A DNA stretch of 32,188 nt from Syntrophaceae bacterium. Its GTDB lineage: Bacteria > Desulfobacterota > SM23-61. The DNA lies in contig JACAEW010000261.1 of NCBI GenBank assembly GCA_013388675.1, positions 1 to 32,188 on the forward strand, in the 5' to 3' direction. The notes under the pieces were generated by a model that ran no database searches, was not told the DNA's origin, and worked only from the letters and a program-made list of their open reading frames with translations. Numbering within the stretch: position 1 is the first letter of the stretch; the number at the start of each line of letters is the position of its first letter. Made by a program: the position numbers and the translations under genes. Shown here piece by piece: positions 3,095 to 30,780 of this stretch.

Positions 3095-3472
3095 ATGGCA
3101 ATCTCAAGCGGGGGGACATGGTCCAAGGGGTCCAAGATCCCTGGCAGTCTATCCAGTTTTTTGAAAACTGCAGGGATCTTCCTGATTCCTTTTCTTTTCA
3201 TCGTCACCCTGGGCGCGGGGAGCCTTAAAGAGGGAAAGGGAGAGATGGAAGTAACCGGAAAGGTCTATGTCATGGGGAATGAACCTTTCAGCCAAGCGGC
3301 CATCCAGATGGACGACGGCCAAGTTTACGCTTTGGTGGGGGTGCATGAAAAGGAACTTCGTCGCCATCAAGGAAGGCGGGTTTCGGTAACCGGCAGACCG
3401 TCCGTGGAAAAACCGCGGGGGTCCAAGGCGATTGAGGTGAAGTCCTTTCGGGTGTTGGAAGAAAAGAGATAA
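3095..3472 (+). CDS. Small secreted or membrane-anchored protein, possibly OB-fold
   Basis: This 125-aa protein of unknown function has a hydrophobic helix at about residues 25-42. The C-terminal 75 residues are short beta-rich segments ([29 protein letters not shown]) resembling small periplasmic OB-fold domains. AGGAGGGA at 3073-3080 precedes the ATG by 14 nt, which is long, but no better start is visible. It lies 31 nt before the metallopeptidase gene and downstream of a sigma-54-like site, so a role connected with the secreted peptidase or T2SS is possible. I do not recognise a named family. Confidence 0.7.
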
Positions 3473-3503: not shown

Positions 3504-5252
3504 ATGAAAAAAGACTGTTTTCTGGGGCTGGTTCTTTCCGTCCTCTGGTTCTTTGCTCTTGGTTCGCCCGAGCCCCTGGCAGCCGCTTTCGGGAAAGCCC
3601 CCATCAGCGGCACACCCCTGCTGCGGGAACAAAGACTTATGCTCCTCAGGGATTACGGCCTTGAGAGGCGGATCAAAGCCGAAAGGGGCATCCTGGCCGA
3701 TACGGTGGGGGACAATCTTTTTTTCTATGCCTTCCATTTTGGCACCATGACCTATTATACGACTGCGGCCACTTGCCGCAGCAGGACGCAATTGAGCTCC
3801 GGTTTTTTTTTGAACATTTACGTGGAAGACGCGGAATGGACGCGGGACCCGGGCCGTTTTACCGATACGATCCTGAATAACATCGGAAACGAATACAAGA
3901 ACGGGATTCTTGCTACGATGTCGGCTCACTTCGGAACCCCTCCTGCAGGGGATTTTACCATCCTGCTCATGGACATTAAAGATGGCGGGGGAGGGGCCTA
4001 CGTGGCCGGGTATTTCGATCCCAAGAATGAAAACACGGTGGCCAACAGCAACCGCCGCCACATGGTTTACTTGGACTCCAAAGAGGGGACGCCGGGCAGC
4101 ACCTCTTCTTTCGGAACCCTGGCCCATGAGTTTCAGCATTTCATCCATTACAACTATGACCCTTATGAAGAGTCCTGGTTAGAAGAGGGCCTCTCGGGGC
4201 TGGCCCGGTATGTGTGCGGATACGGACATCAGGTCAGCCATGTCTCGGCTTTTGCCGCCACTCCCACGACCAGCCTGACCCGCTGGAAGGACGACCTGGC
4301 GAGTTACGGGGCGACCTACCTTTTCATGCTGTATCTTTCCGAGAAATACGGGGGGGCGGGCACCACTCGGGATATCGTAGCCAATAGCGGGAAGGGAATC
4401 AACGGCATCAACAACGTCCTCTTCTCGAGGGGTTACCTGGTTTCGGTCAATGAGGTCTTCAAAAACTGGGTGGTGGCCAACTATCTGAACAATCCGGCCA
4501 TCTCCGGCGGCCGCTACGGCTACTTGGCCAGTTTTTCCGGCATCGCCGGTGCCCCCGGAAACATCGCCATGACCACGACGGTCAGCGGTTATCCCGCAGC
4601 GGGAAGGGGAAGCGTCAACGAGTACGCGGCCGAATATATCCGATTCACCAACCTGGGGGGAACTTATAACCTTTTTGTGCTCATCCCCTACAGCTTGACC
4701 GAAGGCGATGTCCAGGACTATTCCTACACCGCGGCGATCGGGTCTTTGGATCTGAACCTAAACGGCCTGACTCCGACCCTGGGCGCCCAGGGAGTCAAGC
4801 AGGGAACCTCCAACCCCACTCCCGCCGTGGTTACGAATCTTTCTCCATCGAACAATATTTCCACCAGCGAGGGCGGGGAGAGCAGCGATGGAGGAGAGGA
4901 GGGGGGAGGGTGCTTCATCGCCACCGCGGCCTTCGGCTCGCCGCTGGCAGAGGAGATCATCATCCTGCGGGAGTTCCGCAACCGGTACCTTCTGACGCAT
5001 CTTCCGGGCCGGGCCGTAGTGAAGGCCTATTACCGGATCAGCCCGCCTCTTGCGGACTTCATTTCTTCGCATGGGGATTTAAGATTCCTGGCCCGGGCGG
5101 CTCTGTATCCATTTGTGGGATTCAGCCGTTCTGCCCTGCAAGCCCCTGAAGAAGTCGCCGGCTGGGGAATCGGACTGATCCTCCTGGTCGTTTTGGCCGC
5201 GGGGCGTAAGAGGAATGCGCAACGCGGCAGGACCGCGAATAAGAACGGCTAA
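3504..5252 (+). CDS. Secreted HExxH metallopeptidase with CFI-box C-terminal region
   Basis: The 582-aa protein starts with a typical signal peptide (residues 1 to about 27, ending LAAA). The zinc motif HEFQH is at 208-212, and WLEEGLSG follows, with E228 the likely third zinc ligand, as in the M30/hyicolysin and M6-like gluzincins. The catalytic part runs to about residue 440. After a Gly/Ser/Glu-rich linker comes [10 protein letters not shown] starting at C470, then a conserved-looking segment rich in R, Y and P, a membrane helix near 550-565 and a basic tail. The CFI-box is a recurrent C-terminal domain of deltaproteobacterial exported proteins; its processing is not established as far as I know. 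The RBS is GAGAGGAAAGG just upstream. The stop lies 2 nt before gspC, suggesting co-transcription and a link to type II secretion, as substrate or surface component. Confidence 0.85.
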
Positions 5253-5254
5253 AG

Positions 5255-6172
5255 ATGATAAGGTTTTTGGCTCGACATTTTTGGGTTGTCCACCTTCTTT
5301 TTATCGCCTGCGCCGCCTGGCTGATCGCTCACCTTTCCATCCTCTTCATCGAAGACCGGGTCCTGAATCCGCCCTTGCCGAATTCGTCCCGGAAAGCCTC
5401 TTCCCTGGCAGCGACGGCGCAGGAGCCCTACGAGAAATATTCTGCAATAACGGAGCGGAATATTTTCAGCCCCGCGGACCGGGGGCAAAAACTTCTCCCC
5501 TTGGGGGATAGAAAGGCCCACGCTCCCGGGAGCGGAGCGGCGGAGGCGGGGCAGGACGCCGCATCCGGGAACTATGTTCTGGCCGGCACCATCACCGGGC
5601 CGGAGGGATATTCATGGGCCATCCTTCAGGAAAGGGGAAGCCGCAAGCAGCAAATCTTTCGGATTCATGGTAATATCGATGGGGGGAAAATCGTCAGCGT
5701 CACCCGGAAACAGATTCAGATCGAAAAGGACGGAAAGAGGGAAACCCTGATTCTGTCCGAGGAAACGCCCCAACCCCCCCGGCCTGCGGGAAAACCCATC
5801 CCGCCGCCGCCCCCCGCTCCGGCGGGGAAAGAAGAGGTGAAGAAGCTCTCGGCCAACCGGTTCCTGGTGAACCGGGAAGATGTTTCTTCCGCCGTGGGGG
5901 ACATCAACCGTTTTATGACCCAGGCCCGGCTGCGGCCTCATTTCGAAATGGGAAAACCGGCCGGGTATTCCGTATCGGAGATCGTTCCCGGCAGCCTCAT
6001 GGAAAAGCTTGGGCTTAAGAATAACGACATTATCCGCAAAGTGAATGGGATGGCGGTAAGCCGTCCGGAAGAGGTGATGCAAGCCTACGCCCAGTTCCAA
6101 CAGGACTCGAACATCGAACTGGAAATCGACCGGGGCGGGCGGACGGAAATCCTGCGGTACGAAATCAGGTAA
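5255..6172 (+). CDS. gspC: T2SS inner-membrane protein GspC
   Basis: GspC links the inner-membrane T2SS platform to the outer-membrane secretin. The 305-aa product has a short cytoplasmic N-terminus and one membrane helix (about 9-33). The homology region contains YEKYSAITERNIFSP, followed by small beta segments. A Pro-rich linker comes next, then a segment typical of GspC (FMTQARLRPHF). The C-terminal PDZ domain (about 232-305) includes the usual IVPGSLMEKLGLKNNDII pattern. It starts 2 nt after the metallopeptidase stop and ends 17 nt before gspD, the first of twelve consecutive T2SS genes. Confidence 0.95.
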   Translation: MIRFLARHFWVVHLLFIACAAWLIAHLSILFIEDRVLNPPLPNSSRKASSLAATAQEPYEKYSAITERNIFSPADRGQKLLPLGDRKAHAPGSGAAEAGQDAASGNYVLAGTITGPEGYSWAILQERGSRKQQIFRIHGNIDGGKIVSVTRKQIQIEKDGKRETLILSEETPQPPRPAGKPIPPPPPAPAGKEEVKKLSANRFLVNREDVSSAVGDINRFMTQARLRPHFEMGKPAGYSVSEIVPGSLMEKLGLKNNDIIRKVNGMAVSRPEEVMQAYAQFQQDSNIELEIDRGGRTEILRYEIR

Positions 6173-6189: not shown

Positions 6190-8226
6190 ATGAAAGAGCG
6201 GATCGAGCGGTTCACCTTGGCTTTCTTTTTTCTGGCGGCGATGGTCCTGGTCCTCGGCTGGGTTCGGCCCGCGCAGGGGCAGGAGAAAAAGGGCCCGGAA
6301 ATTCAGATTCCCAAGAAGCCCCTTCCCGATGACGCCCTCATCACCATGGACTTCCAGGACGCGGACCTTGCCGTGGTCATCAAGTTCATGGGGGAGTTGA
6401 CGGGAAAAAATTTCTTGGTGAGCGATCCGATTCGGGGGAAAGTGACCATTATTTCCCCCAAAAAGATCACGGTCCGCGAGGCGTATCGAGTCTTCGAATC
6501 GGTGCTGGAGATGAACGGCTACACGGCGGTGCCGGGAGACGATGCGATTAAGATCATTCCCTCCGCCGCCGCCCGCCAGGCGGGCTTGGAAATCCGGGAA
6601 GGAAAGGAAGCCAAGGCCGTTGCGCCCGAAGACCGGATGATCACCCAGATCATACCCCTGGAACACGCCTCGGCCGACGAAGTACGCAACCTCTTCGCTT
6701 CCTCGGTCTCCAAGGAAGGGATGATCATCTCCTACAAACCGACCAATCACTTGGTCATAACCGACCGCGCCTCCAACATCCACCGCCTTCTCAAGATCAT
6801 CGAACAGATCGACGTGCGGATCGTGGAGGAGAAAATCACCGTCTTTCCCCTCGAATACGCTTCGGCCAAGACCCTGGCGGACAAACTGGGCCAGCTCATG
6901 GCCGCGGACCCGAGGCAGCCCGCGCCGGGGAGGCCCCCGGCCCCGGCGGCGGCGCAGAGGGTGGTGAAGATCATCCCGGAGGAACGGACCAACACCCTGA
7001 TCGTCCTGGCCAACGAGCAGGACGCCCGGGAGGTCCGAAACCTGGTGGCCCGGCTGGACACGGAAGCGCCCAAGGGCAAGAGCCAGCTTCATGTCCGGTA
7101 CCTGGAGCACGCCCGGGCAGAGGAGCTGGCCAAGGTCTTGAACTCCATCGTCACCGGCAAAGCAAAGGCGGCGGCCCCTCCGGGGCGACAGCCCCAGGCC
7201 GGGGCGCCCCCGGAAGAGGTATCGATTACCGCGGACAAGGCAACCAATTCCCTGGTCATCACCGCCTCGCCCCAGGAGTTCAAGGAGCTGGAGGAGGTCA
7301 TCGCCAAGCTCGACATGATCCGGTCCCAGGTGCTGGTGGAGGCCCTGATCGCCGAGGTCTCGATGGAAAAGGCGCTCCAGATCGGGGTGGACTGGCGGAT
7401 CATGGACCAGCCGGTGGAGGGGAGCGCCCGGGGATTTGGGGGGAGCGACTTCGGGCTAATCAGCGGCACCCAGCGCGGAGTCTACCCCAGTTCGGCCGGG
7501 GACACGGGTCTTCTCTTGGGCGTGGCCAAGGGCTTTATTACCGTGGGGGGAGTCCAGGTCCCCAACCTGGGAGTGCTGGTCCGGGCCTTTCAGAAGGATA
7601 CGGACGTGAACGTCCTCTCTACCCCCCACCTTCTGACGATGGATAACGAGAAGGCCAAAATCATCGTGGCCGACAACGTTCCCCTCCTCAAATCCGACCT
7701 GACCACTCCCCTGGCCACGGCGACAGCCACGGTATCCAATGTCGCCGTGTCCCGGACCTACGAGTACAAAGATATCGGGATTCAACTGGAGATCACTCCC
7801 CATATCAGCAAGGGCAACATGGTCCGCCTGGAAATCTCCACCGAGGTAAGCAACATCCTGGCCATCGACCCGGCCAACCCCGGTTTTGTAACCACGCGGA
7901 AACGCCAGGCCACGACCACGGTGGCGGTGGACCACGGGCAGATCATCGTCATCGGGGGGTTGATCCGGGACGAGAGCTCGGACACCACCAAGAAGGTCCC
8001 CTGCGTGGGGAACGTTCCCGTCCTGGGGTGGCTGTTCAAGAACTTCGCGGGTTCCAGCACCAAGACCAATCTCCTGATCTTCATCAGCCCCCAAATCATC
8101 CGCACGGCGGAAGACTTGGAAAAGGCCACGGCCAAGAAGAAGAAGGAATCCGAGGAGAACCTGGAGAAGCTCAGGAAGGATCGGGAGAAAGAGGTCCAGG
8201 ATACCTTCGACAAGTTGATCAAATAG
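6190..8226 (+). CDS. gspD: T2SS outer-membrane secretin GspD
   Basis: GspD forms the multimeric outer-membrane channel. The 678-aa protein begins with a signal peptide (to about residue 31). Periplasmic domains follow: N0 (about 45-115), then N1, N2 and N3 between about 150 and 390. Two of them are joined by Ala/Pro-rich insertions (AAAPPGRQ type). The secretin domain occupies about 470-640 and carries the VLSTPHLLTMDN and GQIIVIGGLI signatures. The last ~38 residues form a Lys/Glu-rich, probably coiled-coil tail beyond the secretin core, which may serve in assembly. No pilotin (gspS) is seen in the window. The RBS is weak; the ATG is 17 nt after gspC. Confidence 0.96.
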   Translation: MKERIERFTLAFFFLAAMVLVLGWVRPAQGQEKKGPEIQIPKKPLPDDALITMDFQDADLAVVIKFMGELTGKNFLVSDPIRGKVTIISPKKITVREAYRVFESVLEMNGYTAVPGDDAIKIIPSAAARQAGLEIREGKEAKAVAPEDRMITQIIPLEHASADEVRNLFASSVSKEGMIISYKPTNHLVITDRASNIHRLLKIIEQIDVRIVEEKITVFPLEYASAKTLADKLGQLMAADPRQPAPGRPPAPAAAQRVVKIIPEERTNTLIVLANEQDAREVRNLVARLDTEAPKGKSQLHVRYLEHARAEELAKVLNSIVTGKAKAAAPPGRQPQAGAPPEEVSITADKATNSLVITASPQEFKELEEVIAKLDMIRSQVLVEALIAEVSMEKALQIGVDWRIMDQPVEGSARGFGGSDFGLISGTQRGVYPSSAGDTGLLLGVAKGFITVGGVQVPNLGVLVRAFQKDTDVNVLSTPHLLTMDNEKAKIIVADNVPLLKSDLTTPLATATATVSNVAVSRTYEYKDIGIQLEITPHISKGNMVRLEISTEVSNILAIDPANPGFVTTRKRQATTTVAVDHGQIIVIGGLIRDESSDTTKKVPCVGNVPVLGWLFKNFAGSSTKTNLLIFISPQIIRTAEDLEKATAKKKKESEENLEKLRKDREKEVQDTFDKLIK

Positions 8227-8260
8227 GGACTTGAAAGGTTTCAGTACCCCTAGGGATGAT

Positions 8261-9961
8261 ATGGCTAACAGGATCGACCGGATCATCGCGGAAATCCTTC
8301 AGCACGGGAAAGGAATAGATTCCGCGACGCTGGAAGAGGGCCGGCAGAAACGGAACGGAAAGCCCCTATCCAGCTGGGTCGTTCAGAAGGGATGGATGAC
8401 CGAGGAGGACCTTCTCAGCGAGGTGGCGGCCAAGATCGGGGTGCCCTACTGGAAAGATTTGGAGGCGAAAGGGTTGGAGTCCTCCCTGGTTTCCCGGGTT
8501 CCCCTCGCCTTTGCCAAGAGGAACGGGATCGTCCCGATTCGATTGGAGGAAGAGGTCCTGACCGCGGCGACCTCGGACCCGCTGAACCATGAAGCCCTGG
8601 ACGACCTCCGGCTGATCCTGGGCTGCCGGGAGGTGCGGCCCGTGCTCAGCAGCGAGCAGGAGGTGCTCCGGGCGATCCATCGCTTCTACGAGCGGAGCGG
8701 AGAGACCCCCCAGGAGATGATCCAGTCCCTCGACACGGAGAGCAGCGACCGAATCCTTCACGAGTTGGAGGAAACGGAAGACCTTCTGGAGGTGAGCGAC
8801 GAGGCTCCGGTGATCCGCCTCGTCAACCTCATGCTGTTTCAGGCGGTGAAGGAACGGGCCAGCGACATTCACATCGAGCCTTTTCAGAAGGAGTTAAAGG
8901 TCCGCTACCGGATCGATGGCATCCTCTACAACCGGCTGACCCCTCCCCGGAGATACCACGCGGCCATCGTCTCCCGCCTGAAAGTGATGGCCAAGCTGGA
9001 CATCGCCGAAAAGCGCCTTCCCCAGGACGGGCGGATCCCCATCAAGATCGCGGACAAGGACATCGACATCCGGGTTTCGGTCATTCCCACGACCTTCGGG
9101 GAGAGGATCGTTCTGCGGCTGCTGAACAAGAGCGGCGCCCACTTCGGACTGGGGGAGATCGGCCTTTCCCCCGACCATTTGCGGGTCCTGGAGGATTTGA
9201 TCCAGCGCCCCAACGGGATCCTCTTTGTCACCGGGCCCACGGGCAGCGGGAAGACCACGACCCTGTATGCGGCCCTGAGCCGGATCAATTCGGCGGACAA
9301 GAACATCGTCACCATCGAAGACCCGGTGGAATACCAGCTTTTCGGGATCGCCCAGATCCAGGTAAATCCCAGGATCGGACTCACCTTCGCCCACGGCCTT
9401 CGGTCGATCCTGCGCCACGACCCGGACGTGGTCCTGGTGGGAGAGGTGCGGGACCCGGAGACGGCGGAGATCGCCATCCAGGCGGCGATGACCGGGCACC
9501 TGGTCTTCAGCACGCTGCACACGAATGATGCGGCCAGCGCCGTAACCCGCCTCCTGGACATGGGAATCGAGCCCTTCCGGATCGCTTCGGTCGTCCGGGC
9601 CGTGGCCGCGCAAAGATTGGTCCGGGTCCTGTGCCCCGACTGCAAAGAGGCCTTTTCTCCCGAGGCGGAGGTCCTGAAAGGCCCGGGGATCCCTCCCGCC
9701 CGGCTTCGAGATAGGCCGATCTACCGGGCCAAGGGTTGCCCGGCCTGCGCCGGGACCGGGTACCGAGGGCGGACGGGGGTATATGAAATCATGCTCGTTT
9801 CCGAGCGCATCCGCCACCTGATCATGAAGAAAGCCGACTCGGCCACCATCGGCCGTCAAGCCCTGGAGGAGGGCATGAAGACGCTTAGGGAAGACGGGGC
9901 GGAGAAGGTTCTTTGCGGGGTCACCACCCTAGAGGAGCTGGCGAGGGTCACTCAGGAATAA
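8261..9961 (+). CDS. gspE: T2SS assembly ATPase GspE
   Basis: GspE is the cytoplasmic hexameric ATPase that powers pseudopilus assembly. The 566-aa product has an N-terminal MshEN/GspE-N domain (about 1-145) followed by the secretion ATPase domain. It shows Walker A (GPTGSGKTTT), an Asp box (EDPVEYQ), Walker B (VVLVGEVRDPETA), a His box (STLHTN) and a zinc-binding pair CPDC plus CPAC before YRGRTGVYEI. The frame extends to a TTG at 8231, but ATG 8261 has AGGGA a few bases upstream and gives the usual family N-terminus. gspF follows after a 113-nt spacer made of degenerate repeats. Confidence 0.96.
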   Translation: MANRIDRIIAEILQHGKGIDSATLEEGRQKRNGKPLSSWVVQKGWMTEEDLLSEVAAKIGVPYWKDLEAKGLESSLVSRVPLAFAKRNGIVPIRLEEEVLTAATSDPLNHEALDDLRLILGCREVRPVLSSEQEVLRAIHRFYERSGETPQEMIQSLDTESSDRILHELEETEDLLEVSDEAPVIRLVNLMLFQAVKERASDIHIEPFQKELKVRYRIDGILYNRLTPPRRYHAAIVSRLKVMAKLDIAEKRLPQDGRIPIKIADKDIDIRVSVIPTTFGERIVLRLLNKSGAHFGLGEIGLSPDHLRVLEDLIQRPNGILFVTGPTGSGKTTTLYAALSRINSADKNIVTIEDPVEYQLFGIAQIQVNPRIGLTFAHGLRSILRHDPDVVLVGEVRDPETAEIAIQAAMTGHLVFSTLHTNDAASAVTRLLDMGIEPFRIASVVRAVAAQRLVRVLCPDCKEAFSPEAEVLKGPGIPPARLRDRPIYRAKGCPACAGTGYRGRTGVYEIMLVSERIRHLIMKKADSATIGRQALEEGMKTLREDGAEKVLCGVTTLEELARVTQE

Positions 9962-10074: not shown

Positions 10075-11289
10075 TTGCCCGTTTTCGAATACCAAGGCCT
10101 GAGCCCCTCGGGAAAAGCGCTTCGCGGGATTATCGACGCGGAAAGCCCGCGCACCGCCCGGATCAAGCTTAGGAGCCAGGGGGTCTATCCCACGGAGGTC
10201 CGGGAAGAGACCGCCGGCGCGGTCCATGGGGAGGCTTCCTACGGTCTTTTCCGCAAGGTCCCGCCCAAAGAACTGGCCCGGGCCTTCCGCCAGTTGGCCA
10301 CGCTGGTGGGAGCGGGAATCCCCCTGGTATCTTCCTTTTCCGCCCTGATTGAACAGATCGGCCACCCTGTCCTGAACAAAGTCCTTACCCGGACCCGAGA
10401 GAGCGTGCGGGAGGGCGGGAGCCTGGTCGATGCCCTGGCCGCCCACCCCCAGGTTTTCCCCCCAATTCTCGTGGGGCTGGTAAGAGCCGGCGAAGTCAGC
10501 GGCGCCCTGGCCCTCACCCTCGGGCGGTGGGCCGATTTTAGCGAAAATCAGGTGGCCCTTCGCCAGAGGGTCCGGGCCGCTCTGACCTATCCGGCCTTTA
10601 TGTTTTTCATCGGGTCAGGGGTTCTTTTTTTCCTCCTGACCTTCGTCGTTCCGACGGTGACCGGGGTCTTCTCCGACCTGGGCCAGTCCCTTCCCTGGCC
10701 CACGCTGGTCCTCATGGCGGTAAGCGGTTTTCTGAGCCGGTTCTGGTGGGCCTTGGCAGGGGCCATCGTCCTTTTAGCCCTTTGGGCCCGCAGTTTCCTC
10801 AGGAGCGAAAGGGGTGGCCTGTTGGGGGACCGGTTGAAAATGAAGATTCCCCTGGTCAGGGAGCTGCACCGCAGACTGGCCGTATCGCGCTGGGCTCGGA
10901 CCCTGGCGACGCTCCTCTCGGGAGGGCTTCCTTTGCTCCAGGCGCTGGAATACTCCCAGGGGGTGGCGGGAAACCGCCTCTTTTCCCGGGCGATCGGCCG
11001 GGCGCGGGAACGGGTTCGGGAGGGCGAGGAGATGGCCCTCGCCCTGAAAGAGAGCGGCCTTTTCCCTTCGGTGGTTCTGGAGATGGTGGCGGTGGGGGAA
11101 AAAAGCGGGGAACTCTCTCCCATGCTGGAAAAAGTGGCTTCAAGCCTGGAGAACGAAGCGGAGAGCGACCTTCGGGGGCTGATCGCTCTCCTGGAGCCCC
11201 TCATGATTCTGATCATGGGGCTGGGAGTGGGTTTCATCGCCCTCTCCATTCTCCTGCCCATCCTGGAGATGAGCCAGGTGATCCGGTGA
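10075..11289 (+). CDS. gspF: T2SS inner-membrane platform protein GspF
   Basis: GspF is the polytopic platform protein that contacts GspE and the pseudopilus. The 404-aa sequence starts [14 protein letters not shown], the family's usual N-terminus, using a TTG start at 10075 with GAGGA at 10062-10066. Two repeated cytoplasmic GspF domains are visible; each has an [14 protein letters not shown]- or [15 protein letters not shown]-like helix. Membrane helices lie at about 172-194, 223-242 and 372-398. The rare TTG start and repeat-derived RBS may lower its translation relative to gspE. The spacer to gspG is 83 nt. Confidence 0.95.
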
Positions 11290-11372
11290 ATCGAGTGCGG
11301 AACGGGGAAGTCGGAAAACGGAATGAAAAAAAGAAAAGCGCCCGGGGGGGCTTTCTTGGGCGGGGTGAAAGG

Positions 11373-11819
11373 ATGAAATTATTCCGCGAATGGCCAAAAA
11401 GGAAGACCGGGGGCTTCACCCTGATCGAGCTCATGGTTGTCATTGTGATTTTGGGGATCCTGGCCGGGCTGGTGCTCCCCCGCTTCATGGGCCGGACCGA
11501 GGAAGCCAAGAGAACCAAGGCCAGACTGCAGATCGAAAACCTGGAGGCGGCCTTGAAGCTTTACAAACTGGACAACGGAGGCTATCCCACGACGGAGCAG
11601 GGGCTGGAGTCTTTGGTGCAAAAACCTTCCACGGGATCCATCCCCAAGAACTGGCGGGAGGGCGGATATCTGGAGAAGGCCAAGGTCCCGGAAGACCCCT
11701 GGGGACGGCCTTACGTTTACCTTTCGCCCGGGATCAAGAATAAGGACTTTGACCTGAAATCCCTGGGGGCGGACGGAGAAGAAGGTGGAGAAGGGGAGAA
11801 TGCGGACATCGAAAGGTAG
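11373..11819 (+). CDS. gspG: T2SS major pseudopilin GspG
   Basis: GspG is the main pseudopilus subunit. From ATG 11373 the product is 148 aa with a 14-residue basic leader ending TGG. The prepilin peptidase site is [10 protein letters not shown], with Glu at +5 and the hydrophobic N-terminal helix. Downstream, [15 protein letters not shown] and [13 protein letters not shown] are diagnostic of GspG and include the calcium-binding-loop region. The frame is open far upstream, overlapping gspF, but that part is a shadow. The 3' end overlaps the start of gspH by 20 nt. Confidence 0.95.
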
Positions 11820-12318
11820 CTTAGGATTCACCCTCGCCGAGCTGATCGTGGTCCTCTTTCTTCTCGGTTTCATTTTTCTGCTCACCTTTCCCGGCTTCCG
11901 GGACCTTCTCGAATCCCGGGACATCAAGAAAGCGACGGTCCGCCTGGCCGGCTCTTTACGCTATGCCCAAAGCCAGGCCGCTTCCACCAAGCAAAGGTTT
12001 CGCTTGAACATCGATTTAAAAGAAAACGCCTACTGGATCAGCAAGGAAGGGGGAAAGGAGCCCTTTCACCCGGATTTCACCCCCCTGGGAAAACCCGCCC
12101 CCCTTCCCGCGGGGGTTATTTTTTTGGATGTAACTCACCGGGAAAGGGGCAAAGTGCGGGAAGGCACGGCTTACATCGATTTTTCTCCCACGGGGTGGGC
12201 CGACGAGTGCGAGATTCATCTGGGGAAAGGGGAGGATGAAGTCTTCACCCTTTTCGTCCACCCCCTGGGTGGAAAGACCGAAGTCACCGCAGGGTACCTG
12301 GAAAGAAGGACGTCCTAG
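11800..12318 (+). CDS. gspH: T2SS minor pseudopilin GspH
   Basis: This 172-aa minor pseudopilin has the leader MRTSKGSLG followed by FTLAELIVV, with Glu at +5 and a long hydrophobic helix. A segment typical of GspH comes after it ([21 protein letters not shown]). A GTG at 11785 is in frame, but ATG 11800 gives a standard leader length and has GGTGGAG at a proper distance, so it is preferred. It overlaps gspG by 20 nt, indicating translational coupling. It ends 1 nt before gspI. Confidence 0.9.
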
Positions 12319-12319
12319 G

Positions 12320-12676
12320 ATGAAGAAAGGTTTCACCCTCCTCGAAGTGATGATCGCCCTGGCCATTCTGGCCCTGGTGGGCGTGGCCTTTTTGCGGGCC
12401 CAGGCCAGCAGCGTCCGTTTGGTGGATGAATCCATCCAGGTCTCCCTGGCCACCCTTCTGGCGCGGGAAAAAATGGCCGAGCTGGAAGGCCAGGGGTATC
12501 CCGAGGTGGGCAAAACTTCGGGAGCGGGAGGGGAAGCCTACCCCCGGTTCCGCTGGGAGCAGGTCGTAACCTCCACGGACCTTCCGGTCCTCCGCCGGGC
12601 CCTGGTCCGGGTCCTCTGGACAGAGGGGGCCCGGGAACGGAACCTGGAGCTGATGGCCTATTTTTCCCAGAAATGA
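12320..12676 (+). CDS. gspI: T2SS minor pseudopilin GspI
   Basis: This 118-aa protein has the shortest leader in the set, MKKG, before FTLLEVMIALAILAL with Glu at +5. A segment LLAREKMAELE follows, as in other GspI proteins. AGAAGGA at 12304-12310, inside the gspH end, is the RBS for ATG 12320. GspI normally joins GspJ and GspK in the pseudopilus tip complex, which agrees with the next two genes. Confidence 0.93.
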   Translation: MKKGFTLLEVMIALAILALVGVAFLRAQASSVRLVDESIQVSLATLLAREKMAELEGQGYPEVGKTSGAGGEAYPRFRWEQVVTSTDLPVLRRALVRVLWTEGARERNLELMAYFSQK

Positions 12677-12683
12677 TGGGCCT

Positions 12684-13466
12684 ATGATTTCTCATGAGGG
12701 GAATCGGGGTCATCCATTTACGTTCCGACCCTCGTTGGGGCACTTGAGAACCTTAAGCACGCTTAAGCAGGCTTTTTATGAATTGCGGCGCGGCCGTCTT
12801 GGGCTTTCCAAGCAGCCCGAAAGGCCGGGTGGATTCACCCTTTTTGAGGTTTTGATCACCCTGGCCATTCTGGGGGTCGTACTTTCCCTTCTCTACCTGA
12901 CCTTTCATCAATCCATGACGGTCATGGCCGAAGTCGATGACCGGGCGGAGGTAATCCGCGAGGGCCGGATGGTTTTGGAGAGAATGGCGGGAGAGCTAAA
13001 GGGAACATTCTCCCTCATTCAGAAAGAGGCCTCCCCGGCCTTCCGCACAGGCTTTGTCGGCCGCCCCGCAAGCGAGGGGAATGATTCCCTGGACCGCCTC
13101 GATTTTACCGCCCGTCTGCCTTCTTTTTCCGATTCCCGCGAGGGAGGATGGGGTTTTTTCGAGCTGGGCTATTTCCTGGACCGGTCCCCGGGCAGGAAGG
13201 GATTGACCCTTTTCCGCAGGCAGGATGATGGGATGGATAGAAATCTTCTTCAGGGCGGCCGGTCGGTAGCCCTTTGTGACGGGGTTCGCAGCCTGGCTTT
13301 CTCCTACTATGACCGCCAGGGCCGGAAAGGGAAAGAATGGAACACGCTCGAAGGAGAGCGGCGCAATCTGCTTCCCTCCCGGGTGGAGATTCAATTGAAA
13401 ATGGAGGATTCCCGGGGCCGGGTCCACGAGTTTCGCACCCAAGTCTATTTGCCCATGAGCGGGTAA
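12684..13466 (+). CDS. gspJ: T2SS minor pseudopilin GspJ (start uncertain)
   Basis: The prepilin motif is GG/FTLFEVLITLAILGVVLS, with Glu at +5. The body contains a segment typical of GspJ (REGRMVLERMAGELKG) and a C-terminal VEIQLKMED strand region. From ATG 12684 the protein is 260 aa, but the leader would be about 50 residues, far longer than usual, and no RBS precedes that ATG. An in-frame TTG at 12783 would give a 17-residue leader and 227 aa. Either the start is TTG, or this GspJ has an unusual N-terminal extension. It follows gspI by 7 nt. Confidence 0.88.
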   Translation: MISHEGNRGHPFTFRPSLGHLRTLSTLKQAFYELRRGRLGLSKQPERPGGFTLFEVLITLAILGVVLSLLYLTFHQSMTVMAEVDDRAEVIREGRMVLERMAGELKGTFSLIQKEASPAFRTGFVGRPASEGNDSLDRLDFTARLPSFSDSREGGWGFFELGYFLDRSPGRKGLTLFRRQDDGMDRNLLQGGRSVALCDGVRSLAFSYYDRQGRKGKEWNTLEGERRNLLPSRVEIQLKMEDSRGRVHEFRTQVYLPMSG

Positions 13467-13537
13467 AGGAAAGGACTTCCCGGGTGGCAGGAGAAGGCAA
13501 GAAGGAACAATCGGGAACTGGAAGGCTGGGAAGGGGC

Positions 13538-14491
13538 ATGGGAATCAAACCCATCGGGGATCAGAGGGGGGTTGCTTTGGTGCTGACCCTATTGATCCTG
13601 ACTCTTTTGGTGGTGAGCGGCCTCGAAATGAACCGAGCGGTTCGGGTGGAGGCTACCCTGGCCGAGAATTTCCGCGACCTGACCCAGGCCTCTTACATCG
13701 CCCAATCCGGGGTGGAAGTGGCCCGGGCATTGATTCAGAACGACAACCCCCTTTACGAAGGCCTGGATGAGAACTGGGCCCAATTCGAAAACTTCGCCCT
13801 CCTATCTTCGGGGCTCTTCCCCGAGGGAAGTTTCAACGGGCGGATCGGGGATGAAAACAGCCGGTTCAACCCCAACGGACTCCTGGACCCTTACGGCAAC
13901 GTCAATCTGAAAAAAAAGGAACAGCTGGAGCGTCTCCTTGCCCTTCTGGGCCACCCGGCGGATTGGGTGGAAGCCTTGCTGGACTGGATGGACCCGGACC
14001 ATCAGCCCAGGCCCCGCGGAGCGGAAAGGGAATTCTACCTCAGCAAGAAAAAGCCCCATCCGGCCAAGAACGCCCCCCTGGATTCACTGGAAGAGTTGCT
14101 CCTGATCAAGGGAGTGGACCCTTCCATGTTTTATGGAACGGAGGACAAGGAAGGGCTGAAGGATTACCTGACGGTCCATTCCGACGGAAGGATCAACATC
14201 AACACCGCCAGCCCGATTCTGATCATGAGCCTCTCGCCCAAGATCGACCAAGCCATGGCCCAGGCGGTAATCGCCCACCGGAGGGAGAAACCTTTCCAGA
14301 ACCCCGAAACCCTCCGTTCCCTTCCGGGTTGGGACGGCGTATATCCTTCCATCAGCAGCCAAATCACGGTGCAGAGTAATTCCTTTTTCATAGAGGTGGT
14401 GGGCAACTACCGCGAGGCCCGGGCCCTGGTGCAGACGGTGGTCCGCAGGGAAGGAAGACGGACCCGGGTTCTTGCCTGGAAGGCCGGGTAG
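13538..14491 (+). CDS. gspK: T2SS pseudopilin-tip protein GspK
   Basis: The 317-aa GspK starts MGIKPIGDQRG, then VALVLTLLILTLLVVSGLEM. As usual for GspK, position +5 is not Glu, because this subunit caps the pseudopilus tip. The large inserted domain contains DENSRFNPN and a helix-hairpin-helix-like region (ININTASPILIMSL; PFQNPETLRSLPG). AAGGGG lies close to the ATG. The open frame extends upstream over gspJ, but nothing there looks like GspK. The gene ends 3 nt before gspL. Confidence 0.93.
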   Translation: MGIKPIGDQRGVALVLTLLILTLLVVSGLEMNRAVRVEATLAENFRDLTQASYIAQSGVEVARALIQNDNPLYEGLDENWAQFENFALLSSGLFPEGSFNGRIGDENSRFNPNGLLDPYGNVNLKKKEQLERLLALLGHPADWVEALLDWMDPDHQPRPRGAEREFYLSKKKPHPAKNAPLDSLEELLLIKGVDPSMFYGTEDKEGLKDYLTVHSDGRININTASPILIMSLSPKIDQAMAQAVIAHRREKPFQNPETLRSLPGWDGVYPSISSQITVQSNSFFIEVVGNYREARALVQTVVRREGRRTRVLAWKAG

Positions 14492-14494
14492 AAC

Positions 14495-15952
14495 ATGACC
14501 TTGAAGACCTGGGGATTGGACATCGGGACAACCGGGATCAAGGCCGTGGAGCTTACCCGCACCCTGCGGGGACCCCGGGTGACCCAATACGGAGTTTTTC
14601 CCCTCACGCAGAAAGAAAAAGGGAGTTCCCGCCCCGAGATCGTCCGCCGGCTTCGCGAGGTCCGTGACAAGGCCGGCGGGAGGGGAGAGGACTTGGTGCT
14701 CGTTTTTCCCTCTGCCCGAACCATGGTCCATCGACTTTCCCTTCCCTTCCGGGACCGAAAGAAGAACCGGCAGGTGATTAAGTTCGAGGTGGAGCCCTTC
14801 CTGCCTTTCCCCCCCGAGCAGGTGGTGGTGGATTTTTATTCGGGGGAAAAAGACGAGGCTGGAGAAGAGGCCCTGGTCTTTGCCGCCCGGAAGGAAGACC
14901 TGGGGGAATCCCTGGCGGTGTTAGAGGAGGCGGGACTGGACCCCGAGAGGGTGGTGCCCGAAGGTTTGGCCCTTTTCTGGCTGATTCGGGGGCTGGGTAG
15001 AAATTCGGATGGTCCGGGGGCCCTGCTGGATTTGGGGCTGGATAAGGCCACCTTGATCTTATGGCAAGGAAACCGGTTGAGCCTGGCCCGGTCCATTCCC
15101 ATTTCGGGAGGCCCATCGGCGGGCGCGGAAAATCCCAACCTGGATCATCTGGCTGGAGAGGTAAAACGGACCTTCCTATCTACGGGGGACGGTTTAGAAG
15201 CCCGGTCCATAGGAAGGATTTATGTCACCGGGGGCGTTTCTTTGGCTCCCGGGGCGGAAAGTATTTTGAGCCGGTCTTTGGACATTCCAGTTTCCCTTTT
15301 GAACCCGGGGGAAGTGGCCGGTGAAGCCCCCGCGGAGCATCGGCCCGCCCTGGCTGCAGCCCTCGGCGCGGCCTGGGGAGAATCTTCAGCCGATGGGGTG
15401 AATCTGCGGCGCGAGGAATTCGCCCCCGCCCAGAAAGCCCGGAGGGCGAGGGGCCGGATGAAAGTTCTGATCTCCTACGGGATCATCCTGGCAATCCTCG
15501 GGGTCTCGGCCTTTCTCCTGAACCTCCATCTGCAAGAAAGGAAATACCGGGACCTGAAGGCCCAGATGAGGAGGGAATTTTCCCGGGCGCTGCCCGAGGT
15601 AAAGAGGGTGGTGAACGAACTCCAACAGATGAAGGCTCGAGTGCAGGAAGAGACGGCCAAACTGGGCTCCCTTGGAGGAGGGCCGGGCGGAGGGTCCCCG
15701 CTGGACATCCTTCGGGAGGTGAGCCTGATGGTGGACCCGGGCGCCAAAGTGAGAGTGACGGAATTTTTAGTGGAGTCGGAGGCCATCGAAATCAATGGAG
15801 AGGCGGACTCCTTCGACGCCGTGAACGGGCTAAAGGCCCGATTGGACCAGTCGGCAAAATTCAAGGAGGTCCAGTTGAAAACGGCCCGGGCCAGCAGCCT
15901 GGAGAACGTGGTCGAGTTCAAGTTTCAGATGAAGCAAGGGACGAGGAGATGA
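14495..15952 (+). CDS. gspL: T2SS inner-membrane protein GspL (PilM-like cytoplasmic domain)
   Basis: GspL recruits the ATPase GspE to the membrane. The 485-aa protein begins with an actin-like/PilM-type fold (GLDIGTTGIKAVEL; later LLDLGLDKATLILWQG and IYVTGGVSL). One membrane helix lies at about 324-346. It is followed by a coiled periplasmic segment, a Gly-rich linker and a ferredoxin-like C-terminal domain. The N-terminal part looks more like type IV pilus PilM than enterobacterial GspL, and the periplasmic part resembles PilN. It overlaps gspM by 4 nt (ATGA), indicating tight coupling. Confidence 0.92.
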   Translation: MTLKTWGLDIGTTGIKAVELTRTLRGPRVTQYGVFPLTQKEKGSSRPEIVRRLREVRDKAGGRGEDLVLVFPSARTMVHRLSLPFRDRKKNRQVIKFEVEPFLPFPPEQVVVDFYSGEKDEAGEEALVFAARKEDLGESLAVLEEAGLDPERVVPEGLALFWLIRGLGRNSDGPGALLDLGLDKATLILWQGNRLSLARSIPISGGPSAGAENPNLDHLAGEVKRTFLSTGDGLEARSIGRIYVTGGVSLAPGAESILSRSLDIPVSLLNPGEVAGEAPAEHRPALAAALGAAWGESSADGVNLRREEFAPAQKARRARGRMKVLISYGIILAILGVSAFLLNLHLQERKYRDLKAQMRREFSRALPEVKRVVNELQQMKARVQEETAKLGSLGGGPGGGSPLDILREVSLMVDPGAKVRVTEFLVESEAIEINGEADSFDAVNGLKARLDQSAKFKEVQLKTARASSLENVVEFKFQMKQGTRR

Positions 15953-16458
15953 GAATCTCGGGAAGGGAGAAGGTCTTCCTCTGGGGAGGGGCCGCTTTTT
16001 TGGCCGCCCTGCTGGTTTTCCTGTTCGCCGTGGACCCGGCCTTAAAAAGAGCCGGGGAATTGAAACGTCTGATTCCCCAGAAGGAGCGGGAACTCAGGCA
16101 GCTGCGCCTCTTAAGTCAAGAGCTCGAATCGCTGAAACAGGCCAAGGCGGCATTTCTGCAGAAAATCCCCGCGGAGGAAAGGGCCCGCCCGCCTCTTTCC
16201 CGGTTGGACGGTTGGATCGAACGATCGGGCTTGCGCCCGAATGTAAAGTCGATCAAGCCCTCTTCTTCCCCGCTGGGAGAAGGGATGGTGGTGGACGTGG
16301 CGTTGGAAAAAGCCGAACTCCCCCCCCTTACTCGCTTCCTCTACGAGGCCCAATCCTCCCCCGGGGGCTTCCGGGTCGCCCGAATCAGCGTGAAACCCCG
16401 GTACACCACGCCCAAGTACCTGGATGTCTCCCTGCAGCTGATCTTTTACCAGGGTTGA
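15949..16458 (+). CDS. gspM: T2SS inner-membrane protein GspM
   Basis: The 169-aa protein has a short cytoplasmic N-terminus, one membrane helix (about 9-28), a predicted coiled coil (about 35-85, rich in Lys, Glu and Leu) and a small ferredoxin-like periplasmic domain. This is the standard GspM/PilO layout; GspM partners with GspL. Sequence similarity in this family is low, so the call rests on architecture and the invariable position after gspL. Confidence 0.88.
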   Translation: MRISGREKVFLWGGAAFLAALLVFLFAVDPALKRAGELKRLIPQKERELRQLRLLSQELESLKQAKAAFLQKIPAEERARPPLSRLDGWIERSGLRPNVKSIKPSSSPLGEGMVVDVALEKAELPPLTRFLYEAQSSPGGFRVARISVKPRYTTPKYLDVSLQLIFYQG

Positions 16459-16468
16459 GGGGTCGGCC

Positions 16469-17203
16469 GTGAGAATTGCTAAGTCCATAATGGGATACGT
16501 TCTCCTGGGGGGCTTTTTCTTCTACGTCTTTTTCCTCTGGCAATTCCCCTACGATCGCCTGAAAAACAATCTGATTCAAATTTTCGAGGAGTCCCTTCCT
16601 CTATCCTTGTCCATCGCGCGAATCGCGCCTTCCTTGCCCATGAACATGAGATTCGAAGACATCCGGGTGGGATGGGAAGGGTTTGCTCTGCACCTTCCGG
16701 ACCTGATCGTTCACCCCCGCCTGGTGGAAACCCTCCTGGGAACCCCCGCTTTTGAGTTCCACGACGGGAAAAATTCACCCCGGATGGAGGGGACGTTCCA
16801 GCGGGAGAAGAGGGGGAACAAACTTAACCTGCGGCTGGATAAAATGGAAATTCGCACGGCCTTCGGGAACGGGGAAACCCTTCGGATTCAAGCGAGCGGA
16901 GAGGCCTCCTTTCAATGGGAGGGGGAAGATTTGGAAAGAGGAAGGGGACAGCTTTGGGGTCTCTTGGAGAGGGAAGCGCTTCAGGCCCGCGCGGTCCCGC
17001 AAATCCCCCTGCCCCTGCCCTTAACCCTTTTCGATTCCCTGCGGATAGAGGTGCAGATTCAGGATGGAGTGGCGCGAGTGAGACGCCTGGAGGCCTCCGG
17101 AAAGCAGGCCCGATTCTCCCTTCCCCGGCCAATCCAGGTCCCGCTGAAAGGGGGAGCCCTGCCCGCGGAGCTGCTATCGCTCCTTCCGATGGCACCGAGG
17201 TAG
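16469..17203 (+). CDS. gspN: T2SS protein GspN (deltaproteobacterial type)
   Basis: The 244-aa product starts at GTG 16469 and has one N-terminal membrane helix (about 8-25) and a beta-rich periplasmic domain. Features include MRFEDIRVGWEGFALHLPD and a C-terminal repeat of short strands. Its size and position after gspM match the GspN form common in delta lineages. GspN is dispensable in several T2SS and its role is not settled. It is the last T2SS gene here; prepilin peptidase (gspO) is absent from the window. Confidence 0.82.
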   Translation: MRIAKSIMGYVLLGGFFFYVFFLWQFPYDRLKNNLIQIFEESLPLSLSIARIAPSLPMNMRFEDIRVGWEGFALHLPDLIVHPRLVETLLGTPAFEFHDGKNSPRMEGTFQREKRGNKLNLRLDKMEIRTAFGNGETLRIQASGEASFQWEGEDLERGRGQLWGLLEREALQARAVPQIPLPLPLTLFDSLRIEVQIQDGVARVRRLEASGKQARFSLPRPIQVPLKGGALPAELLSLLPMAPR

Positions 17204-17416
17204 GAGGCGGAATTCTTTTGCTCAAGTACGCAAGGGCCGCCAAGATAAAAGCAGCCCTAAAAATAATCTCCATGAGAGGCGCAAAGGGCGCGGAGAAAAA
17301 TATGCAGATCGGCCGTCTCAACTTTCTTATCGATCATGATTTCGCTACGTCCGGGCGCTCTGCGGCTCCTGCGGAGCGGGGCCGAGAAAATTGGTTTTTC
17401 GTTTGAGGAGGGGTTC
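17204..17416. other. Spacer after gspN with repeat-like relics
   Basis: No gene is seen. Two similar words, at 17230-17250 and 17281-17301 (both built on GCAA-GGG-CGC and ending in an A-rich stretch), look like decayed copies of a dispersed intergenic sequence. A small hairpin (CGCTC 17356-17360 with GAGCG 17374-17378) precedes the RBS of the next gene. No convincing promoter was found. Confidence 0.35.
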
Positions 17417-18799
17417 ATGGACGGACAGATTGTATTCGGCGACCGGATGATTCCGGTCAAGCTTCCCGAGCGGACGAAATCCCTGCCCCCGGGCCTTTCC
17501 ACTTCTCTGCCGCCCGTGGCCGATCCCCAGGCCGCCATCCGGGAGGCCCTGAAAAGGCCCCTCGACCTTCCCCCCCTTCGCGACCTGGCGAAACCGGGCT
17601 GGAAGGTCACGATCGCCTTCGATGACCCGACGGTTCCCTGCTACGGCCCCTTATGGGAACCGGCCATCCGTTCGGTCCTGGAAGACTTGGAGCACGGCGG
17701 AGTGAAGAAAAAGGATGTCCACCTTCTTTGCGCCAATGCGCTGCACCGTAAGTTCACCCGAGGGGAGCTGGCCCGAGTCATCGGCAAAGGATTGGTCGAG
17801 GAGTTTGGTTACCGGCTGCTCTGTCATGATGCCGAGGACCGGGACAACCTGGTCTGGCTGGGGACCACGCGTAACGGGTATGACGTGGAGGTGAACCGCC
17901 TGGTTGCCGAAAGCGACCTGACCGTTTACATCAATACCGTGGTCTGGAGGGGGTTTAACGGGGGTTGGAAATCGATCTGCGTGGGCCTTTCCACTTACCG
18001 CTCGATCCGCTGGCATCACTCCCCGGAGGGCATGTCCATGTCCATCGACCGGAACCCGATGCATGAAATGCTCGACGAAATGGGTGAGGTCGTGGAGGAG
18101 AAAATCGGAAAAAGGCGGATTTTCAAGATGGAAACGGTCCTCGCCAACCCCTTTCAGATGGCCCGGGTATGGACCGGCACCGTGGGGGACACCCGGCGGG
18201 CAGCGCTCGAGGTCCTGAAAAAGCAGTATCCCCCCCGCCGGGACATGACCGAGGAAAAGGCGGACATTCTCGTCTATGGGGTTCCGGACTGGAGCCCCTA
18301 TGCCTCCTTCTCGGTGATGAATCCCCTGTTGACTCTGGTCTCAACCGGCCTTGGATACTTGGGGGGAGTGATCGAAGCCATGGGAAAGCCGGGTTGCTCG
18401 GTAATCCTGGCCACCCCTTGCCCTAACCGATGGGATGATCTCCACCATCCTTCCTACCGAGAAGTCTGGCATGCGGTCCTCGGCCGTTCCAGGGACCCTT
18501 ACGAGATCCGGGACCTCTTCGAAGAGGATTTCGCCCACCGCCCCGAGTACCTCTACAAATACCGGTTCTGCTACGGGTTCCACCCGATCCACGGGATCCT
18601 GGCCACCTATCCCCTGAAGCGACTGAAACATGCAGCGAGGGTTTTCGTGGCCGGTGCGGAAAATCCCTCCCTGGTGACCCACCTGGGATTCGAACCGGCG
18701 GGGTCCGTGGAGGCGGCCGTTGCCAGAGCCGAGGAGATTCACGGAAAGGACGCTTCGATTATTTTTATCCAGAATCCCCCGGCCAGGAACAGACAATGA
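17417..18799 (+). CDS. LarA/DUF2088-family protein (lactate racemase-like, catalytic His missing)
   Basis: The 460-aa protein belongs to the nickel-pincer LarA superfamily of 2-hydroxyacid racemases and relatives. By-eye alignment to Lactiplantibacillus LarA gives nearly identical numbering: H110 (LarA H108), K185 (K184, which links the pincer cofactor) and H201 (H200, nickel ligand) are present. The position of H174, the second catalytic acid/base, is V175. It therefore probably binds the cofactor but may not be a canonical lactate racemase. GAGGAGGGG at 17405-17413 fixes ATG 17417; the in-frame ATG at 17336 has no RBS. No larB, larC or larE is nearby, so cofactor genes must lie elsewhere. 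A hairpin-T-tract follows the gene. Confidence 0.85.
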   Translation: MDGQIVFGDRMIPVKLPERTKSLPPGLSTSLPPVADPQAAIREALKRPLDLPPLRDLAKPGWKVTIAFDDPTVPCYGPLWEPAIRSVLEDLEHGGVKKKDVHLLCANALHRKFTRGELARVIGKGLVEEFGYRLLCHDAEDRDNLVWLGTTRNGYDVEVNRLVAESDLTVYINTVVWRGFNGGWKSICVGLSTYRSIRWHHSPEGMSMSIDRNPMHEMLDEMGEVVEEKIGKRRIFKMETVLANPFQMARVWTGTVGDTRRAALEVLKKQYPPRRDMTEEKADILVYGVPDWSPYASFSVMNPLLTLVSTGLGYLGGVIEAMGKPGCSVILATPCPNRWDDLHHPSYREVWHAVLGRSRDPYEIRDLFEEDFAHRPEYLYKYRFCYGFHPIHGILATYPLKRLKHAARVFVAGAENPSLVTHLGFEPAGSVEAAVARAEEIHGKDASIIFIQNPPARNRQ

Positions 18800-26588: not shown

Positions 26589-26604
26589 CCGAAGGGATAA
26601 ATGG

Positions 26605-27915: not shown

Positions 27916-27937
27916 GGACCGCCATGCTGTCCTTTTT
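27914..27937 (+). terminator. Weak intrinsic terminator or attenuator inside the EPS operon
   Basis: AAGGAC (27914-27919) pairs with GTCCTT (27929-27934) around a 9-nt loop, and a run of five Ts (27933-27937) follows. The stem overlaps the stop codon of the barrel gene. A 6-bp stem suggests partial termination, which would lower expression of the chain-length and kinase genes relative to the export genes. Confidence 0.35.
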
Positions 27938-28020
27938 CGGCGCCCCGTTGCAGGGATGAGGACGAGTCCAAGAGGCGAAACGGCGAACCTGGAACGGGCA
28001 GCCGGTAGAAGGGTTTCATC

Positions 28021-29595: not shown

Positions 29596-29600
29596 GAGCC

Positions 29601-30614: not shown

Positions 30615-30780
30615 ACCTCTGCTCTCAAAGAGGGACGGATTCAATTCGCGCATGGCAGGCGGTAACAATCCCTTGAATTCTTGGAAATCAGCTCTCCATT
30701 CTTGGGAAAAGGGGGCATGAGAAGGATGCGCGGGAGGTCGAACCCAAAAAACGAAACCCATCAAAAGAAAGAAGAGCCAA

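Follow-up and report, generated by a model that had tools for sequence, protein, structure and literature searches.

A CFI-box-tailed M30-type metallopeptidase directly upstream of gspC as a candidate client of the adjacent type II secretion system

A Syntrophaceae bacterium encodes an exported zinc metallopeptidase of M30 type directly before gspC, at the head of a full type II secretion system (T2SS) gene cluster. The enzyme ends in a CFI-box, a transmembrane (TM) segment and a basic tail, together called the CFI tail here. The DNA analysed, hereafter the window, is a stretch of 32,188 nucleotides. There is about an even chance that the peptidase is a membrane-tethered, surface-destined client of the adjacent T2SS, with the CFI tail as its C-terminal anchor or sorting module. 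The link to secretion would be borne by the tail and not by the enzyme, because CFI tails stand on unrelated cargo at T2SS loci.

In the proposed mechanism, Sec would export the M30-type peptidase, and the CFI-box, TM segment and basic tail would hold it in the inner membrane; gene fusions in other genomes suggest a cytoplasmic C-terminus. The tail would keep the folded periplasmic enzyme near the T2SS, within reach of the GspC PDZ domain and possibly of GspN. The T2SS would then carry the enzyme across the outer membrane, and the enzyme would presumably remain on the cell surface. The sequence suggests that C470, the first residue of the box, might be a site of cleavage or lipidation.

The tail is tied to T2SS by co-occurrence across genomes, gene adjacency, pseudopilin fusions and replacement of the MYXO-CTERM anchor on related cargo. 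A dedicated T2SS substrate, proposed by an earlier annotation from the DNA letters alone (the sequence-only reading), is the best reading of this tie.

Gene and protein layout

The peptidase gene, on the forward strand like the small upstream gene and gspC to gspN, occupies 3504-5252 and encodes 582 amino acids followed by a TAA stop, as supported by its open reading frame (ORF) and by profile and structure matches. The sequence-only reading had placed it at 3504-5254; the start stands, and the true end is 5252, since 5254 takes in the 2-nt gap before the gspC ATG at 5255. A Sec signal peptide is predicted by eye at residues 1-28 (3504-3587), with probable cleavage after A28. The catalytic part contains the HEFQH zinc/catalytic motif (residues 208-212, with H208, E209 and H212; 4125-4139), the third zinc ligand by homology, E228 (4185-4187), and Y268 (4305-4307), the equivalent of lugdulysin Y315 by an offset in our own numbering. 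A Gly-rich linker leads from the catalytic domain to the CFI-box (residues 470-538, from C470 on; 4911-5117), which belongs to the CFI_box_CTERM family (NF041770, 93.3 bits against a cut-off of 40, E=5.8e-27). The predicted TM segment covers approximately residues 549-567 (5148-5204): the hydrophobic 19-mer from residue 549 has a mean KD of 1.72, and the AlphaFold2 model (mean pLDDT 75) places a helix at 548-577. The basic tail (5205-5249) carries a net charge of +6 and is predicted to be cytoplasmic. The ORF thus bears out the earlier description of an exported HExxH protein with CFI-box, helix and basic tail 2 nt before gspC, and its order of Cys box, TM segment and basic tail is laid out like a sorting signal, as had been proposed.

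The profile of 13 peptidase relatives (A2) matches the structure of lugdulysin, an M30 peptidase (PDB 7bb8), with E=4.3e-53 over profile positions 59-374. Foldseek, started from the AlphaFold2 model, also ranks 7bb8 first (E=3.8e-15, 22% identity). A2 shows no variation at H208, E209, Q211, H212, E228 and Y268 and almost none at F210; HEFQH aligns with lugdulysin HEYQH, giving HExxH, a distal Glu and an active-site Tyr. Because of this match and the conserved catalytic residues, the window enzyme is M30-like and probably active. It shares catalytic domain, zinc motif and Tyr with lugdulysin, whereas its CFI tail falls outside the aligned part. No Pfam-A profile, peptidase or other, matches the window peptidase at E<=1, and the MXAN_6640 metalloprotease model (NF045524) reaches 41 bits against a cut-off of 140, outside that family.

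The T2SS operon and its surroundings

Upstream lies a gene for a small protein of 125 amino acids (3095-3472), exported by eye and with a weak DUF5818 match (PF19135, 25.4 bits, below the gathering score of 27); it ends 31 nt before the peptidase ORF. Downstream, gspC with a C-terminal PDZ domain (5255-6172; NF041515, 196.6 bits, cut-off 150) is followed by the secretin gene gspD (6190-8226; 541 bits, cut-off 351), gspE (8231-9961; profile match) and gspF (10075-11289), which falls narrowly below the TIGR02120 cut-off (418.5 bits against 424) and above that of Pfam T2SSF. The mature part of gspG (11412-11819) lies in the frame of ORF 10746-11819. Next come a gspH-like pseudopilin gene (11785-12318; below the GspH NCBIfam cut-off), gspI (12236-12676), a gspJ-like pseudopilin gene (12684-13466; below the GspJ NCBIfam cut-off) and the gspK ORF (13337-14491; match from residue 76); gspF, gspH and gspJ are assigned by position together with pilin or Pfam matches. 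The series closes with gspL (14495-15952), gspM (15949-16458) and gspN (16469-17203; TIGR04411, 89.8 bits, cut-off 50), gspI, gspL and gspM being assigned by profile matches.

The core genes C to M thus stand in order, followed by gspN up to 17203, as an operon, and the operonic join of the peptidase to a full T2SS, claimed earlier, holds from gspC to gspN. No prepilin peptidase is found among the window ORFs scanned. A scan for regulatory sites yields no promoter-like site and seven terminator-like sites, against 5.2 +/- 1.9 in shuffled sequence.

Other features of the genome are recorded here for context. After gspN, 17336-18799 encodes a LarA-type NPN-dependent hydroxyacid isomerase family protein (Pfam Lar_N above cut-off, the NCBIfam model below). 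Farther downstream of the T2SS, 25977-31680 is an XrtA/PEP-CTERM-type exopolysaccharide locus with genes for an export protein, a barrel, a chain length determinant, an ATPase and a tyrosine kinase; of the XrtA-system models, the chain length determinant alone exceeds its NCBIfam cut-off. The source genome has a second CFI protein (contig 290; L002, 589-2286) with a CFISTS variant box, a TM segment and a long basic tail, and its gene adjoins a transposase-like ORF (by eye).

Conservation of the locus

Three of the seven other genomes searched in the class repeat the series small exported gene, peptidase, gspC, gspD: G002 (loci L006/L078), G005 (L077) and G006 (L005/L079). Because of this recurrence, the gene order reflects more than chance. 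The CFI tail is intact in G002, absent in G005 though the gene lies near gspC, and interrupted in G006 by a deletion with frame change, where a small ORF stands before gspC. These losses may be biological or may be assembly faults of metagenome-assembled genomes (MAGs). In G007, from the same genus as the window, gspC and gspD are present and no peptidase-core match is found. The tail losses near gspC and this peptidase-less T2SS count against the client reading.

A relative of the small partner gene adjoins the peptidase at L077-L081, L083, L084, L087 and L089, and none is seen beside the peptidase at L082, L086 and L088; among the nine distant peptidase relatives (L080-L084, L086-L089) it is kept in six (L080, L081, L083, L084, L087, L089). 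None of these nine has a gsp cluster within the stretches scanned; at L084, one GspE/PilT-like ATPase ORF lies beside the peptidase relative on the opposite strand. This bears on the rather unlikely alternative that the peptidase, facing the periplasm, never leaves the inner membrane and acts on the T2SS or its cargo as a housekeeping or maturation protease. Its C-terminal TM segment, operon place directly before gspC and conserved catalytic residues would all suit such a role; the lack of a gsp cluster in the stretches scanned around L080-L083 and L086-L089 and the recurrence of the CFI tail at T2SS loci on other cargo argue against it.

By eye, an N-terminal lipobox is present in four (L084, L087, L088, L089) of the six relatives without a CFI motif (L080, L084, L086-L089), and in none of the six proteins whose CFI motif is intact or of the mini form (window, L078, L085, L081, L082, L083); the comparison leaves out L077 and L079, whose tails are lost or broken. 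Because of this distribution, the sequences suggest that the peptidase anchor may be exchangeable between an N-terminal lipid and a CFI tail. The two are not mutually exclusive overall, since the script rule finds a lipobox in 7 of the 97 CFI proteins that have the Cys. The L081-L083 proteins (family f22) have a mini-CFI motif, some 28 residues long, at their end and no TM segment. In L083 (from 4764), an in-frame TAG precedes the last third of the peptidase relative and the frame runs on to the mini-CFI end; this TAG may reflect stop readthrough, TAG recoding or a pseudogene.

Distribution and composition of the CFI tail

A CFI match at E<=0.001 occurs in 70 of 247 genomes of the phylum, 64 of them above cut-off. 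From these, 105 distinct CFI segments were gathered, and dropping eight without the Cys left 97 from 55 genomes; near-identical boxes were merged before counting, whereby the TM-less G055 was lost. Lipobox and long-tail classes follow simple script rules. Two long-tail genomes (G033, G100) were added to the long-tail set after the 97 proteins had been fixed. Twelve of the 70 CFI genomes are unclassified or Cys-less (G012, G028, G035, G040, G065, G075, G076, G083, G108, G162, G186, G187), and their omission leaves the long-tail result unchanged.

A TM-like segment follows the box in 73 of 97 proteins, with net positive charge behind it in 64 of the 73. Ten positions (C470, F471, G478, R492, G502, Y509, Y510, S513, P514, A517) are invariant in 43 aligned tails, which were chosen by a motif that requires the Cys. 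The tail is predicted to be all-helical in the structure model; it matches no PDB fold at E<=0.001 and no PDB sequence at E<=10. The open-licence PMC library, outside which most subscription journals fall, contains no match for the CFI-box.

The cargo proteins are unrelated, and secreted-type proteases are among them. An NCBIfam scan of 72 of the 97 proteins (E<=1e-5) identifies, among proteases, seven of mycosin serine type, five MXAN_6640 metalloproteases and four M6 metalloproteases. Further cargo comprises a lysophospholipase/thioesterase family (5), choice-of-anchor U (4) and D (4) domains and delta-60 repeats (4), and pilin-type cargo comprises pilin leaders (6) and GspG (3).

One genome, G082, holds 15 CFI matches (L115, L118, L122, L124, L125, L129, L131, L133, L141). 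Of 13 CFI proteins read there, nine are without a TM segment by rule and 12 without net positive charge after it, so a TM segment and basic tail are not obligatory. The TM-less G082 proteins end shortly past the box, and several have NCDG-like repeats ahead of it.

The peptidase itself is much rarer than the tail: by our own reading, its catalytic part is matched in 13 of 247 genomes. Because of this disproportion with the CFI genomes, the window peptidase is unlikely to process all CFI tails. The processing enzyme that the sequence-only reading had offered as its other option is therefore weakly supported.

Adjacency and fusion to T2SS and pilin genes

CFI genes recur at T2SS loci outside the window's family. 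Eight of 97 CFI genes lie near a T2SS cluster (p=1e-5, with assumed cluster and genome sizes and a hand count), and adjacency or fusion is spread over families f1 (the window's), f15, f18, f39 and f65. In five f15 genomes (L070, L073-L076) the CFI gene sits inside the T2SS cluster, directly before gspG, and in three of them (L070, L073, L075) CFI and GspG form one open frame. At L070 (genome G021), no ATG, GTG or TTG occurs in the 60 codons before FTLIE, and the fusion is the sole above-cut-off GspG of the genome. For these two reasons GspG is probably released by prepilin peptidase, and therefore the end of the CFI tail would lie in the cytoplasm.

Looser arrangements are also present. In G157 (L071) a CFI gene lies 3.6 kb from gspD with an opposite-strand ORF between them, and in G233 (L072) one lies beside gspN on a contig that holds the CFI gene's end alone. 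G124 (L175, 3632-5237, family f18) has a gspC-like gene whose first ATG comes 1 nt after the end of a TM-less CFI gene; the gspC-like gene scores 115.7 bits with GspC_delta, below the cut-off of 150. This genome has no above-cut-off GspD, no GspG at E<=1e-10 and no GspK at the limit used, and the locus is possibly a relic or a divergent T2SS.

Fusions to pilins other than GspG are found in five genomes (L090, L097, L103, L106, L137). Four (L090, L103, L106, L137) read prepilin, CFI, TM segment and a second pilin-like frame, this second part recognized by eye, and L097 is a short pilin with a CFI-TM end. L090 and L106 carry the script label signal peptide, their pilin fusion having been recognized by eye. 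In L100 and L101, a stretch that by eye resembles a second signal peptide comes after CFI-TM and leads into an MXAN_2562-type barrel. Judged from their sequences, the fusions would fit a periplasmic box with a cytoplasmic tail end. A tail left on a pilin would bar entry into the filament, a further point against a peptidase that simply resides in the inner membrane.

Co-occurrence with T2SS and GspN

Genomes were counted as T2SS-positive with GspD at E<=1e-90 or GspK at E<=1e-12, across the 247 genomes of the phylum; the curated GspK cut-off is passed by just 89 of 156 genomes with a GspK match. T2SS markers occur in 62 of 70 CFI genomes against 108 of 177 others (p=1.5e-5). For the long-tail form, they occur in 43 of 47 genomes against 127 of 200 otherwise (p=9e-5). 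Co-occurrence, which the sequence-only reading had put forward as a check, thus holds for the long-tail form, while exclusivity does not. These tests, like those below, ignore phylogeny, except for the family tally.

GspN is above cut-off in 91 of 247 genomes. Among T2SS-positive genomes, gspN is found in 37 of 43 long-tail genomes and in 53 of 127 otherwise (p=3e-7), and in genomes with both GspD and GspK the figures are 32 of 36 and 49 of 103 (p=1e-5). Counted by family, they are 19 of 22 and 27 of 51 (p=0.008), in a tally without G033 and G100 and with G161 taken as T2SS-positive through a GspG check limited to CFI genomes and a few others. Six T2SS-positive long-tail genomes are without gspN (G033, G047, G100, G157, G209, G246). 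GspC_delta and gspN are themselves strongly associated (p=7e-33), and within GspC_delta-positive genomes the contrast falls to 30 of 32 against 49 of 66 (p=0.03), so much of the link between long tail and gspN is explained by T2SS subtype.

Exosortases provide the control: they show no association with gspN (p=0.86) or with the long tail (p=0.13). The latter figure also weighs on the idea that an exosortase-type enzyme processes the CFI tail. At two f58 loci (L168, 15641-18483; L169, 16207-18945) a CFI gene and an exosortase gene meet tail to tail, and the window has its XrtA-type exopolysaccharide locus; against this, 25 of 47 long-tail genomes have no exosortase match at E<=1e-6. An exosortase as general CFI partner is rejected for want of association, and exosortase processing of the tail is highly improbable. 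The f58 exosortase is nearest XrtC, below that cut-off, and the CFI protein of L169 has fn3/PKD domains.

Replacement of MYXO-CTERM on related cargo

NF045522, whose name is 'MXAN_2561 family MXYO-CTERM-anchored protein', recognizes the passengers of L098, L099, L100 and L145 at E values between 2e-7 and 4e-14; none of the four reaches its 150-bit cut-off. In the profile, the match stops at position 266-281 of 304, 0-9 residues from the CFI Cys. L101 resembles L100 in its N-terminal part, yet its NF045522 match is below the limit. L100 and L101 include a fused MXAN_2562-type barrel (above cut-off), and the gene for such a barrel follows the CFI gene in L098, L099, L132 and L145, as judged by similarity to the L100 barrel. 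MXAN_2561 and MXAN_2562 would, from their numbers, be neighbors in Myxococcus. These MXAN_2561-like CFI proteins come from families f31, f12 and f26. By sequence comparison, the CFI tail stands on them where MYXO-CTERM is expected. A literature search for MXAN_2561, MXAN_2562 and MXAN_6640 found nothing.

MYXO-CTERM proteins are reported to be cut by myxosortase and displayed on the Myxococcus surface in a T2SS-dependent manner (PMC11980579). MYXO-CTERM consists of a C-terminal Cys, a TM segment and a basic tail on exported proteins, features common to the CFI tail (PMC11980579). Unlike MYXO-CTERM, the CFI tail has a conserved box of 69 residues that separates the Cys from the TM segment, spans about 95-140 residues from Cys to end in unfused forms with TM and basic tail, and is also found without a TM segment. 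The window tail does not match MYXO-CTERM, and its C470 lies about 79 residues ahead of the TM segment. To our knowledge, the CFI tail has no known cognate protease, unlike MYXO-CTERM with its CPBP-family myxosortase; the present analysis also found no sorting enzyme for it.

A broader version of the client reading is tentative: outside Myxococcota, the CFI tail may serve GspN-type T2SSs as a many-to-one C-terminal signal for surface anchoring that can be swapped with MYXO-CTERM, and it may be cut near C470 and perhaps lipidated at the Cys, with GspG polyproteins split by prepilin peptidase. After Sec export, a cut near C470 on the periplasmic side would let the T2SS take the protein to the surface; some relatives would make tail and GspG as one polyprotein, to be split by prepilin peptidase.

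CFI boxes outside T2SS

CFI boxes are not confined to secretion loci. Among 23 plasmid records are those of an archaeon, Paracoccus, Burkholderia and a Bacteroidota species, and the two plasmid CFI proteins examined are TM-less and cytosolic-looking. Short boxes occur on a Haloquadratum restriction-endonuclease-like protein (by eye; L174, 715-1749) and on a Burkholderia cold-shock protein (L173, 1147-1731).

Within the phylum, 7 of 70 CFI genomes have neither GspD nor GspK at the limits used nor an above-cut-off GspG (G023, G046, G085, G124, G162, G215, G238). Secretin matches are present in all of them and stay under the GspD cut-off; they may represent secretins of pili. The CFI proteins of G085 and G215 are TM-less and cytosolic-looking, that of G023 is a pilin fusion, that of G238 a cut multi-TM protein, and that of G162 a weak match. 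G046 is the true exception: an exported long-tail CFI protein in a genome with sub-cut-off secretin matches only, its signal peptide read by eye against the script label 'noSP'. This protein (L091, 3754-6369) combines an EACC1-type caspase-like domain, below cut-off, with the long CFI tail. The sequence-only reading had named CFI-box proteins common in genomes lacking T2SS as a finding that would speak against it. This objection holds in part: such proteins do occur, in an archaeon and in these seven genomes. The two plasmid cases and G085, G124 and G215 have no TM segment. The CFI-box is therefore a general module, and it is the exported, membrane-tailed form that tracks T2SS.

A stronger claim, that the box binds membranes or proteins in general and has no part in T2SS, that its adjacency to gspC is accidental and that the statistics reflect lineage, is improbable. 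Other phyla and the archaeon have short boxes on cytosolic-looking proteins, which favors it, as do the inflation of the tests by related genomes and the share of the gspN signal owed to T2SS subtype. It is opposed by the repeated adjacency and fusion in five families, the family-level gspN result with null exosortase controls, and the replacement of MYXO-CTERM by the CFI tail.

Comparison with known systems and significance

Two other systems resemble the proposed client of the T2SS. VesB, a GlyGly-CTERM/rhombosortase-type protease, has a Gly-rich stretch, a C-terminal TM segment and a basic tail, and is a T2SS client with involvement of the GspC PDZ domain (PMC12369372; PMC6219818), which VesB is reported to need (PMC12369372). 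The window peptidase shares this design, but it has no GlyGly-CTERM match. GspN is reported to be required by T2SS lipoproteins in Acinetobacter (PMC12802150); these too are surface-anchored T2SS cargo, and the window has gspN, which is enriched with the long CFI tail. The anchor in that system is an N-terminal lipid, whereas in the window it is C-terminal (PMC12802150).

The tie to T2SS and GspN gives the membrane-tailed CFI-box, a named domain, a testable role. It predicts many surface proteins, proteases included, in this phylum. The use of CFI and MYXO-CTERM tails on related cargo would be a natural experiment on how T2SSs handle membrane-anchored clients.
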